Positions 20,760 through 24,857 of a stretch of 64,000 nucleotides of DNA are shown here, piece after piece; position 1 is the stretch's first letter; each line of letters starts with the position of its first letter. The stretch spans positions 186,001 through 250,000 of the forward strand of contig JANWWT010000004.1 of NCBI GenBank assembly GCA_025055675.1, in the 5' to 3' direction. A model generated the notes under the pieces. That model ran no database searches, was not told the origin of the DNA, and saw only the letters and a list, made by a program, of their open reading frames with translations. Both the position numbers and the translations under genes were made by a program. This DNA comes from Pseudanabaenaceae cyanobacterium SKYG29 (GTDB lineage Bacteria > Cyanobacteriota > Cyanobacteriia > Pseudanabaenales > Pseudanabaenaceae).

Positions 20760-21497
20760 ATGCAGTATGTGTTAGTTTGTGGTGGCAGTGGGGGTATTGG
20801 CTCCGCCTTTGTCCGACATTTTTTAAGCCAACCTAATACCTTTGTCTTTGCTACCTTTTATTCTCAGCCCCAGAGATTAGCCGAATGGCAGCTACAATAT
20901 TCCGATCGTCTTCTCCCCCTCGCTTTAGACATAACAGAAGAAGTACAAATTGCTCAAATAGTCGAGAAGATAAAAACGCAGACCGATCGGTTACACTATG
21001 CTATCAACTGCATTGGTTTTTTGCAGACAGAGGGCATTCAACCGGAGAAGAATCTGCGCTCTTTACAATCTGAGAATTTAGTGCGTTATTTTCAGGTCAA
21101 CAGTATTGGCGCTGTGCTCCTAGCAAAACATCTCTTACCTTTGTTCAAGCACGAAGACCGATCAGTGTTTGCTACCCTGTCTGCCAAGGTGGGGAGTATT
21201 GGCGATAATTATTTGGGGGGCTGGTATGGCTACCGTGCCTCTAAGGCAGCTCTGAATATGTTTATGCGTTCAGCCGCCCTGGAATATCAACGCACCTGCC
21301 CCAATACAATTGTTGTGCTCCTGCACCCCGGCACTACTGACACAGAACTATCCCGTCCCTTTCAAACCAATGTGCCCCCCCATAAACTGTTCAGCCCCCA
21401 CCGCTCCGTTGCCTATCTCACCCAGGTATTAGACCAACTCCAGCCCTATCACACTGGTACTTTCTGGTCTTGGGACGGCAGCCAATTGCCCTGGTAA
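20760..21497 (+). CDS. Short-chain dehydrogenase/reductase (C-factor/CsgA-like)
   Basis: NAD(P)-dependent oxidoreductase, 245 residues. Rossmann loop GGSGGIGSAF at 8-17, catalytic Ser141, Tyr158 and Lys162 (YRASK). Similar cyanobacterial proteins are annotated as C-factor-like or CsgA-type SDRs; the substrate is not known. It follows prmC by 4 nt. Its last 49 nt overlap the 3' end of the EgtC-like gene on the other strand. Confidence 0.88.
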   Translation: MQYVLVCGGSGGIGSAFVRHFLSQPNTFVFATFYSQPQRLAEWQLQYSDRLLPLALDITEEVQIAQIVEKIKTQTDRLHYAINCIGFLQTEGIQPEKNLRSLQSENLVRYFQVNSIGAVLLAKHLLPLFKHEDRSVFATLSAKVGSIGDNYLGGWYGYRASKAALNMFMRSAALEYQRTCPNTIVVLLHPGTTDTELSRPFQTNVPPHKLFSPHRSVAYLTQVLDQLQPYHTGTFWSWDGSQLPW

Positions 21498-22267
21498 GCA
21501 TGCAAACTCACTTCTCCCCCCTGTAGCTGCGCTACGATCGTGCCGTGGGGTGGAAATCCTTGCCAGCGTTGATCCTCCCACAGGGGTTCAGAAGCCACAA
21601 TCAAGCCATAGTCCGTGCGCAATCTATACAAACTGGGTACTGGTGCAGCACTAGCACAGCGGGTCGCCACCAAACTTACCCCATCGCTGACAATTATATT
21701 CAGGGCACTCCTAACCCCGTAGCGTTCGGATAATCGCAAAACCGTAGCAATGGTTAAACTGAGTGCTTCCCGTAGGTCCTGGCTGTCGTTGTAAAACTGC
21801 ATCAACAGAGCAAAAATGTGCTCCGAGTCCGTCACCCCGTGAATCAAATGATAGAATTCATCCTGCAGGAGGGAACGCATTGGTCGCAACAGGGAAGTGC
21901 GGAAATTCTCTATAAAGCCATTGTGGATAAAACTAAAGCGATCGAAACAGTAGGGCGGACAATTCTGCCAGCCAAATCCCTGTCCCGGCGTAGCACTGCG
22001 AATACCCGCCAGGAAACAATCTGACACCACATACCGCTGCAAAGATGGCAAATTAACATCATTCCAAATCGGTAACTCACTGCGATAGGTAAACGGATAG
22101 GGAGACTTACCCAGGTCGTACCATGCTACACCGAAGCCATCGGCGTTTAACAACCCTGCCGTCATTTCCTTTGGCTGATAACTCTGCACCACCAAAGAGT
22201 GGGGAGGATGACTAATCAGTGCCTCCAACGCCAAGGGTTGTCCCACATACCCCAACAGTCGACACAC
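21449..22267 (-). CDS. Class II glutamine amidotransferase (EgtC-like)
   Basis: N-terminal-nucleophile amidohydrolase, 272 residues. After removal of Met the Cys2 (MCRLLGYVG) would be the nucleophile; the conserved NADGFGVAWY near 60 and FSFIHNGFIENF near 130 are present. The ergothioneine-pathway EgtC shares this architecture, but EgtB and EgtD are not in the window, so the pathway is uncertain. GTG start at 22267 directly follows the TAG of the kinase gene, so translation is probably coupled. Confidence 0.82.
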   Translation of the reverse strand: MCRLLGYVGQPLALEALISHPPHSLVVQSYQPKEMTAGLLNADGFGVAWYDLGKSPYPFTYRSELPIWNDVNLPSLQRYVVSDCFLAGIRSATPGQGFGWQNCPPYCFDRFSFIHNGFIENFRTSLLRPMRSLLQDEFYHLIHGVTDSEHIFALLMQFYNDSQDLREALSLTIATVLRLSERYGVRSALNIIVSDGVSLVATRCASAAPVPSLYRLRTDYGLIVASEPLWEDQRWQGFPPHGTIVAQLQGGEVSLHAYQGNWLPSQDQKVPV

Positions 22268-24532
22268 CTAGAACGACCTCCAAACCTTGACCGTACTATC
22301 TAAACTAGCAGTAGCAAAAGTCTGTCCATCCGCACCAGCCCCAATAGCAGTGATCCGATCGCTATGGGCGGGAAAGGTGTCCAGGAGATTCCCTCTCCCC
22401 AGATGCCAGATACAGAGCATCCCATCTATACTACCCGTTGCCAGAGTCAAGTTGTCAGGCGCAATCGCCATCGCCGAAATCGGCGCTAAGTGGTGAGAAA
22501 AAACATGCACTAAATTGCTCGTACTCAGACTCCAAACTCGTACCTGCCCATCGCGACAGCCGCTTACTGCCAACATGCCATCCTGGCTCAGGGCCACCGC
22601 GGTAATACCGTTTTGGTGCCCCCTCACATTCAAAGGGGGTACTGCCGTTGTTACATCACAGACATTGATGTTGCCTTCCTCTGTCCCAATGAGCAGAATG
22701 TTGCCGTCATAGCTCATGTCAATACAAGTAATAATCCCGTTGCGTTTTAATTTCGCCGTCTCCTGCTGCTGCTCCAAACTGTAGACCACGATCGTGCGGT
22801 TTTGCGTCACATAACTCACTACCTTGCCATTCCCACTAATTGCGAGCATAGAAGCTACTGCCGGCTCTGTGGAAATAGCACAGGTAAATTTACAAGTTGG
22901 CACATGCCACACTTTGATTTGTTTATCCAAAGTAGCTGTGACTAAGGTGTTGCCATCCGCACTCAGTTTTGCTACTAAAAATCGCTCTCCCTTTTCCGAA
23001 TTAGTACCAAAACCCTCACAATCAGGGCATATCACCGCCTGTTTTGTTTTGACAAATAAGAGAGAGCCCTCTTTGTAAATCTTGCCTAGACCACTGCAGG
23101 TAGAGCAGGTATCCTCTTTGATCACTATGCCTTTCGCTGCCCCTGTTTCCATATCCCAGAGCTTGGCAATTTTCCGCTGTCCCGTCGTCAAGATAATTTC
23201 CCTGGGAGTAATCCCCACATAGGCGCAACCCTGATCGTGGGCATGGATAGTGCCAGCACAACGCCATAGCTGGGAAATAGTTTCCTCTTCCTGGGCAGAA
23301 TAAGTAGAACTAACCACGGGAGTAGGGGGTATATCAGAATTAGCAACCCCTGTTCGTTTGACATCCTCCACAAAAGCAGTGATAAACTCATCATCTTCTG
23401 TCTGTACCTGACTGACAGGATTTTGCCTAGGAGCAGGGGTGTCTAGGTCTTGGATTATTTTCTCAAATAGGTCATCATTCAGCGGGGAGATTACTTCCGT
23501 TTTGCTGCTAGTTACCTCCCGCAAAAATTCATCCACACTGTCTTTCTCTTGCGAGGGCTTGGGTTCGGTAGTGATAATCTCCCGTAAAATGGTCTCGACA
23601 TATTCTCTATCTTCTTTCGTTTCTGTGCGAATACCTGTGTTTTTTGCCCCCAATCGCTCTACATCCTTAAGGGCTTCCGTGGCAGTGCTGTAGCGGTCTT
23701 GTCGCCGTTCCTGCATCATCCGATCGAGGACCTGGATGAGACGGGGAGTGACATCAGCAGGAACATAGTCTTGCCAAGTCTGCAGCCAACTGTAACCCCG
23801 TTTGATAAACAAACTGTAGGGGCTAACCCCCGTCAACAGGTGGAAGCAAGTAACACCCAAGCTATAAATATCACTGGCGGGATAGGCTTTCCCCTCACTC
23901 ATCTGTTCAATGGGAACATACCCGGATGTACCAATAGAAGTGCCTGTAATCACCCTTTGAGGGTCAGTCAATAATTTCGCTACACCAAAATCTATGAGGA
24001 ATAATTTATTGTCTCCCTGGCGCCGAATGATATTTTCGGGTTTGATGTCGCGGTGAATGACTTGTCGTTCATGCACAAACTCCAAAATGGGGAGAATATC
24101 CCGCAGAATTGCCCAGATTTCTGCCTCCGTAAAATTACCATGGCGTTCTAGCAGTTTCTGCAGATTCATGCCCGGCACAAATTCCTGCACTAGGTATTGT
24201 CGTTTGTCCTGGGTAAAGAAAGCAAGGAGGTCGGGAATCTGAGGGTGAACACCCAAATCATTGAGACGGATAGCTTCCTGGTAAAATAACTCTGTGGCTT
24301 TCTGCAAAGCACCCGTTCCTTGCACTTGGGGCAGAAATTGTTTGATCACACAGCTAGCATTCAGACGGTCTTGATCAATGGCTAGATATGTTCTCCCAAA
24401 TCCCCCTTGCCCCAGTACCTTCACCGCCCGATAGCGCTCCTTCAGGAGTAATTTAGAGCCACAGTTGCGGCAAATTTCATCTGTTGGTTGATTCTGCGGC
24501 TGCGAGCAGTCAGGATTGATACAGTAGCTCAT
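22268..24532 (-). CDS. Serine/threonine kinase with zinc-ribbon, DnaJ-like zinc finger and WD40 repeats
   Basis: 754 residues. Residues 1-30 hold a zinc ribbon (CINPDC and CRNC). The kinase spans about 33-300: glycine loop LGQGGFGRTY, HRDIKPEN, DFGVAKLL and GTSGYVPIEQ, all consistent with an active enzyme. A 125-residue acidic linker holds four short repeated motifs. The C-terminal half is a WD40 propeller (LWD, VWH, VWS, IWH, VWR strand ends). Inside its first repeats sits a pair of DnaJ-type motifs, CSTCSGLG and CPDCEGFG, about 30 residues apart. The plain ribbon-kinase-WD40 form is common in cyanobacteria; the inserted finger is unusual. EgtC-like gene starts at the next base. Confidence 0.93.
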   Translation of the reverse strand: MSYCINPDCSQPQNQPTDEICRNCGSKLLLKERYRAVKVLGQGGFGRTYLAIDQDRLNASCVIKQFLPQVQGTGALQKATELFYQEAIRLNDLGVHPQIPDLLAFFTQDKRQYLVQEFVPGMNLQKLLERHGNFTEAEIWAILRDILPILEFVHERQVIHRDIKPENIIRRQGDNKLFLIDFGVAKLLTDPQRVITGTSIGTSGYVPIEQMSEGKAYPASDIYSLGVTCFHLLTGVSPYSLFIKRGYSWLQTWQDYVPADVTPRLIQVLDRMMQERRQDRYSTATEALKDVERLGAKNTGIRTETKEDREYVETILREIITTEPKPSQEKDSVDEFLREVTSSKTEVISPLNDDLFEKIIQDLDTPAPRQNPVSQVQTEDDEFITAFVEDVKRTGVANSDIPPTPVVSSTYSAQEEETISQLWRCAGTIHAHDQGCAYVGITPREIILTTGQRKIAKLWDMETGAAKGIVIKEDTCSTCSGLGKIYKEGSLLFVKTKQAVICPDCEGFGTNSEKGERFLVAKLSADGNTLVTATLDKQIKVWHVPTCKFTCAISTEPAVASMLAISGNGKVVSYVTQNRTIVVYSLEQQQETAKLKRNGIITCIDMSYDGNILLIGTEEGNINVCDVTTAVPPLNVRGHQNGITAVALSQDGMLAVSGCRDGQVRVWSLSTSNLVHVFSHHLAPISAMAIAPDNLTLATGSIDGMLCIWHLGRGNLLDTFPAHSDRITAIGAGADGQTFATASLDSTVKVWRSF

Positions 24533-24644: not shown

Positions 24645-24857
24645 TTATTTTTTCTTGCCTTTGCTGGGGCTGGCTTTAGCATCAACGAGTTCTAGTTCTT
24701 CGGGGCGAAAGCTGACGAGTTTATCCCAATTCCCACCTTCAAATAGGACGGCTACTCTGCCATCCGTGAGGCGTTGTACTAATCCCTCAAAGCCATAGTA
24801 AATGTCTCCAGGATTGATAACCCGAACAGCAGAACCAGGAAAGATCATGTTTGTCAT
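24645..24857 (-). CDS. ndhS: NAD(P)H-quinone oxidoreductase subunit S
   Basis: Ferredoxin-binding subunit of the photosynthetic NDH-1 complex, on the cytoplasmic side of the thylakoid. 70 residues in an SH3-like fold: [45 protein letters not shown]. The C-terminal about 13 residues are Lys-rich (ASPSKGKKK). The first or second Met could start it; no strong ribosome site settles this. It is divergent from ispF, with about 40 nt shared upstream, and lies 112 nt upstream of the kinase gene. Confidence 0.9.

Follow-up and report, generated by a model that had tools for sequence, protein, structure and literature searches.

An ATG-started, uninterrupted open reading frame in the window (the whole 64,000-nucleotide stretch of DNA analysed here) encodes a Ser/Thr kinase of 754 residues, in which a cysteine-containing prefix and a kinase domain are joined by an acidic linker to a WD40 propeller that carries an inserted finger (Table 1). 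The N-terminal CxxxxC/CxxC ribbon and the active-looking kinase noted in the initial annotation are both recovered. The prefix (C4-x4-C9 and C21-x2-C24) matches the NCBIfam '4-Cys prefix' model NF045510 over residues 2-27 at 37.3 bits (cut-off 24), with its cysteines invariant in the ortholog alignment, and the kinase domain is complete (Pfam PF00069, 144.1 bits against a cut-off of 31.7, E 7e-42). The P-loop, K64, E86, D162 of the HRD motif, N167 and D181 of the DFG motif are all conserved in the alignment, as in Hanks-type kinases. The WD40 repeats (PF00400, 117 bits) reach the C-terminus, and CSTCSGLG and CPDCEGFG lie among them at residues 476-483 and 502-509, between blades 1 and 2, as had been claimed, although the distance between their first cysteines is 26 and not about 30 residues.

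Table 1. Features of the kinase gene and its adjacent genes (window positions).
Feature	Position	Strand	Evidence
egtC, ergothioneine biosynthesis amidotransferase	21449..22267	-	TIGR03442, 279.6 bits vs cut-off 218.65
Ser/Thr kinase gene, 754 aa: 4-Cys prefix, kinase, linker, WD40 with finger	22268..24532	-	ORF translation
WD40 blades 2-7, residues 518-754	22271..22981	-	Pfam WD40 matches, model, structure matches
DnaJ zinc-2-type finger CSTCSGLG-x18-CPDCEGFG, residues 476-509	23006..23107	-	PF00684, alignment, model hairpin
WD40 blade 1, residues 423-471; strand 423-430 closes blade 7	23120..23266	-	model strand list
Acidic linker, residues 298-418, four predicted amphipathic helices	23279..23641	-	low-confidence model and motif comparison
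Kinase domain, residues 33-288, catalytic residues intact	23669..24436	-	PF00069, invariant residues
4-Cys prefix, residues 1-30 (C4, C9, C21, C24)	24443..24532	-	NF045510, Cys invariant
ndhS, NDH-1 subunit S, upstream of the kinase	24645..24857	-	PF11623, E 4e-30

The earlier label 'DnaJ-type' for the finger is right and can be narrowed to one half of the DnaJ zinc domain, as the matches span about positions 14-54 of the 65 in the PF00684 profile, which correspond to DnaJ repeats 2-3. These two repeats build zinc site 2 of DnaJ. A search of the whole genome with PF00684 found two places only, DnaJ itself and the kinase finger (E 3.7e-5), and the isolated fingers of four orthologs gave E-values of 8e-8 to 5e-6. 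Two orthologs score 32.7 and 32.9 bits and the window finger 27.1, against a gathering score of 32.7 and with half of the profile covered. The four CxxCxGxG repeats and two zinc sites of the full PF00684 domain are not present, the finger having two repeats only; the HPD motif and J domain are absent from the 754-residue sequence, and matches to DnaJ models of NCBIfam are confined to residues about 463-512. Repeat spacings are 17, 26 and 14 in all 21 cyanobacterial DnaJs fetched, and the finger has the spacing of 26. It aligns with DnaJ repeats 2-3 without gaps (13-20 identities of 34), and the similarity persists when cysteines and glycines are set aside: against the DnaJ of the same genome, the shuffle p is 0.008 for the window finger and 5e-5 for that of M5B4, and 0 of 20,000 shuffles reached the score of the UBA8156 finger. 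Among solved structures, searched as PDB sequence profiles, the finger profile found E. coli DnaJ (1exk) first, with an E-value of 1e-4. The model of the isolated finger has a mean pLDDT of 59 and its best Foldseek match is again a DnaJ (6jzb); with such weak figures (E 0.63, probability 0.63), this match is not counted as proof of homology. Considering the profile coverage, the spacing of 26, the residual similarity and the 1exk match together, homology with the zinc-2 half of DnaJ is the best reading of the sequences. DnaJ is also the likely, though not proven, source of the finger, a direction of transfer that we infer.

The position of the finger was examined in an AlphaFold2 model of the full-length protein, built from a five-row alignment (mean pLDDT 65, pTM 0.47). 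The propeller is confident, with blocks mostly at 80-94, the kinase is poorly predicted, and at this pTM the model gives no confident kinase-propeller arrangement. Its strand pattern can be interpreted as seven closed blades, the last of which is completed by the N-terminal strand 423-430, and the propeller matches WD40 chains of the PDB with Z of about 35-37 in VIA-align (up to 36.9 for 3ow8, rmsd 2.3 over 289 residues). The predicted hairpin of the finger (484-491/494-501) follows strand d of blade 1 (466-471) and precedes strand a of blade 2 (518-523), and in the alignment the insertion point is exactly the GH loop of finger-less WD40 kinases. In WD40 proteins, this d-a (GH) loop belongs to the top face, through which partners are bound. 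The suggestion that the propeller is gated by the finger finds no support in this model, in which a normal seven-bladed propeller closes and the finger is an insertion in one inter-blade loop. Its CxxC bases have a pLDDT of about 81-85; the hairpin tip is weakly predicted.

Genera of the window's family, Pseudanabaenaceae, are numbered here g1 to g8, g1 being the window's own. Every intact ortholog keeps all four finger cysteines, so the doubt whether they are conserved in close orthologs is answered. The four motif glycines, T478, Q498, P503, D504 and F508 are likewise invariant across the fingered clade, although propeller identity between its genera is otherwise as low as about 27%. Compared with the remainder of the propeller, nonsynonymous change in the finger is reduced or about equal, and it falls far short of the synonymous change; between UBA999 and SM2_2_1, the finger shows 12 synonymous and 0 nonsynonymous differences, as compared to about 41 nonsynonymous differences in the rest of the propeller. 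The invariant residues and the low nonsynonymous change indicate that the finger is a selected feature. That it reflects chance cysteines or an assembly artefact is extremely improbable: the motif is short and the relatives are derived from MAGs, but the identical insertion with invariant cysteines occurs in intact genes of g1, g6 and g7, and together with the curated-profile matches and the purifying selection on the finger this excludes such an explanation for practical purposes.

Conservation of this kind is nevertheless also expected of a structural site, and many zinc fingers are structural. A zinc knuckle that only braces the junction of blades 1 and 2, or constitutively widens the protein-binding face, with no sensing, is nearly as likely as the redox-dependent docking proposed below, and the contrast in the model between well-predicted CxxC bases and a poorly predicted hairpin tip may be taken in its favour. 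On the other hand, conservation extends to residues beside the cysteines, among them the invariant Q498 and F508, which points to a used surface on the finger, and the redox and iron genes found next to the kinase also speak against a purely structural role.

The fingered kinase is a lineage-specific form of a widespread 4-Cys-prefix/WD40 Ser/Thr kinase. When 388 Cyanobacteriia genomes were searched with a finger-plus-blade profile and then a full-length profile, strong matches were found in only seven, which belong to three genera (g1, g6 and g7) of the window's own family and are small-genome relatives of Pseudanabaena; the same profiles detected no fingered kinase in g2, g3, g5 and g8 or in g4, a genus with good sampling. 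Other matches to the finger-plus-blade profile in these genomes (E near 1e-7) are mostly DnaJ-sized frames of about 380-410 residues; a small remainder lies in longer frames (509-1236 residues) and scores weakly, with the signal scattered over the blade part of the profile. Short peptide patterns scanned against a collection of 84,980 species gave six loci, whose titles name Pseudanabaenaceae, Oscillatoriales or unclassified cyanobacterial MAGs, and no further group matched these patterns. In the kinase-domain tree, six fingered kinases form one clade (98/95), sister to ten finger-less WD40 kinases of other families, and twelve finger-less WD40 kinases are among the best matches outside the window's family. 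The 2005 and 2007 surveys describe many cyanobacterial WD40 kinases (PMC1262709, PMC2176072), and the latter names 14 types of accessory domain in cyanobacterial Ser/Thr kinases, none of them a zinc finger or DnaJ domain (PMC2176072). With finger-less WD40 kinases widespread and the finger limited to one clade and absent from the 2007 survey, the proposal of a possibly new domain combination gains support. The possibility that the combination is common in cyanobacteria was rejected on the count of seven genomes, the common form being the 4-Cys kinase with WD40 repeats and without the finger.

The closest counterparts are the WD40 4-Cys kinases of the sister clade, with kinase domains about 50-56% identical to that of the fingered kinase. 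The cbSTKII kinases with seven WD40 repeats (e.g. all0438 and Tery_0059; PMC2176072) have the same order of Cys prefix, kinase and seven-bladed WD40 domain. Unlike the fingered clade, the finger-less WD40 4-Cys kinases have a Pro/Ser/Ala-rich spacer in the place of acidic helices, and the helix motif is absent from them. The linker of the fingered clade is acidic, and a short amphipathic helix of the type D/E-D/E-x-F-I-x-x-F-L/V-x-D/E-V, for instance DDEFITAFVEDV, recurs in it, with two to four copies as counted by eye (a strict pattern finds fewer); in the window protein, AlphaFold2 places the helices with low confidence at 306-318, 333-342, 353-364 and 380-394. Helices and finger co-occur in every intact fingered protein read, which makes a connection between the two, within the molecule or through a partner, worth testing.

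DnaJ (type I Hsp40) itself shares with the finger the CxxCxGxG pair of zinc site 2, the spacing of 26, a beta-hairpin between the repeats and the residual similarity, but the fingered kinase has repeats 2-3 only and is without repeats 1 and 4, the J domain and the substrate-binding C-terminal domain. Since the finger corresponds exactly to the zinc-2 half, it could dock DnaK or unfolded or oxidised clients and report folding or thiol stress to the kinase. The zinc domain of DnaJ works together with DnaK and binds unfolded clients (PMC8262869), and ZnJ2, a DnaJ-type zinc protein without a J domain, is a holding chaperone (PMC5818400). A chaperone-coupled kinase is still improbable, considering that a J domain and HPD motif are lacking, that ZnJ2 gives DnaK no assistance (PMC5818400), that the hairpin residues are unlike those of DnaJ, and that the immediate neighbours read include no recognisable chaperone gene. 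Chloroplast proteins of the ZnJ2/BSD2/PSA2 type also carry the DnaJ-type CxxCxGxG module outside DnaJ, with redox and assembly roles, but they are small stand-alone proteins and not kinases, and ZnJ2 has four repeats (PMC5818400).

The TAG stop codon of the kinase directly abuts the GTG start codon of egtC (TAG-GTG at the junction in the window), egtD (EgtD) is encoded elsewhere in the same genome, and the order ndhS, kinase, egtC on one strand is found in all three genomes of g1. Just upstream of the kinase in g6 is cysK, which was named from its sequence and PF00291 and encodes a PLP enzyme of the cysteine-synthase type; in g7 an FTR1 iron permease gene lies directly downstream of the kinase. 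An FTR1-family permease is also directly downstream of finger-less WD40 4-Cys kinases in two other families, so that kinase-FTR1 pairs, with or without the finger, occur in three cyanobacterial families and this neighbourhood may predate the finger. Such adjacency is recurring and not general, since a WD40 kinase precedes FTR1 in only 2 of the 20 other loci sampled. These neighbours are thiol, redox or iron genes and would tie the kinase to that metabolism; as they differ by genus (egtC and ndhS, cysK, FTR1), the context is suggestive only.

We therefore propose, at a probability of roughly 0.45, that the finger is a redox- or zinc-labile docking element on the partner-binding face of the propeller, linked to thiol and iron homeostasis. 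An equivalent of DnaJ repeats 2-3 would have entered the d-a loop between blades 1 and 2 in an ancestor of the three Pseudanabaena-family genera, for which the sequence evidence is strong. The analogy with DnaJ suggests that one Zn2+ is held by the four cysteines, which would brace the beta-hairpin, and that this hairpin projects from the top of the propeller. The finger could then dock a partner or substrate in a manner labile to oxidation or loss of zinc, and recruitment of the kinase would follow thiol/redox or iron status jointly with the N-terminal 4-Cys prefix.

Redox or zinc sensing by the fingered kinase is plausible. The redox side draws on three independent facts, namely the oxidoreductase activity of the DnaJ zinc-2 site (PMC8262869), the thiol and iron neighbours, and the redox-modulated kinase SpkB of Synechocystis. 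By its published description, SpkB is likewise a Ser/Thr kinase with a Cys-rich N-terminus; this N-terminus is a thioredoxin target, and both iron starvation and high light have effects on the mutant (PMC10651672). A WD40 domain or DnaJ-type finger is not described for SpkB in the text consulted. A bolder version, in which the kinase captured the redox-active half of DnaJ and its propeller became a thiol/chaperone-status sensor choosing the partners to be phosphorylated, appears rather unlikely; if true, damage to protein thiols would be connected with the metabolism of iron and ergothioneine.

The signal sensed by bacterial Hanks kinases is set by their accessory domains, and a signal or partner is known for few if any of the WD40 kinases of cyanobacteria. 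A conserved graft of DnaJ zinc site 2 on the binding face, together with the abutting egtC, offers a concrete thiol/redox/iron hypothesis in which four cysteines are pinpointed. The fingered kinase further illustrates cleanly how part of a chaperone domain can be re-used within another fold.

Some relatives carry altered copies of the gene. Two related MAG populations have frameshifts in it, which may be errors or decay, and the kinase may be dispensable there. In a close relative (locus L061, 3743-6011), the same gene is broken by a frameshift inside the kinase domain, through assembly error or decay. The MAGs G012 and G013 (loci L069 and L068) have a seemingly identical frameshift within the second CxxC of the finger, and contig C47 of G013 resembles a contaminant from the g6 population. 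A further kinase of G012 (locus L005), a near relative by its kinase domain, has a repetitive membrane-like C-terminus in place of the WD40 repeats and one internal stop.
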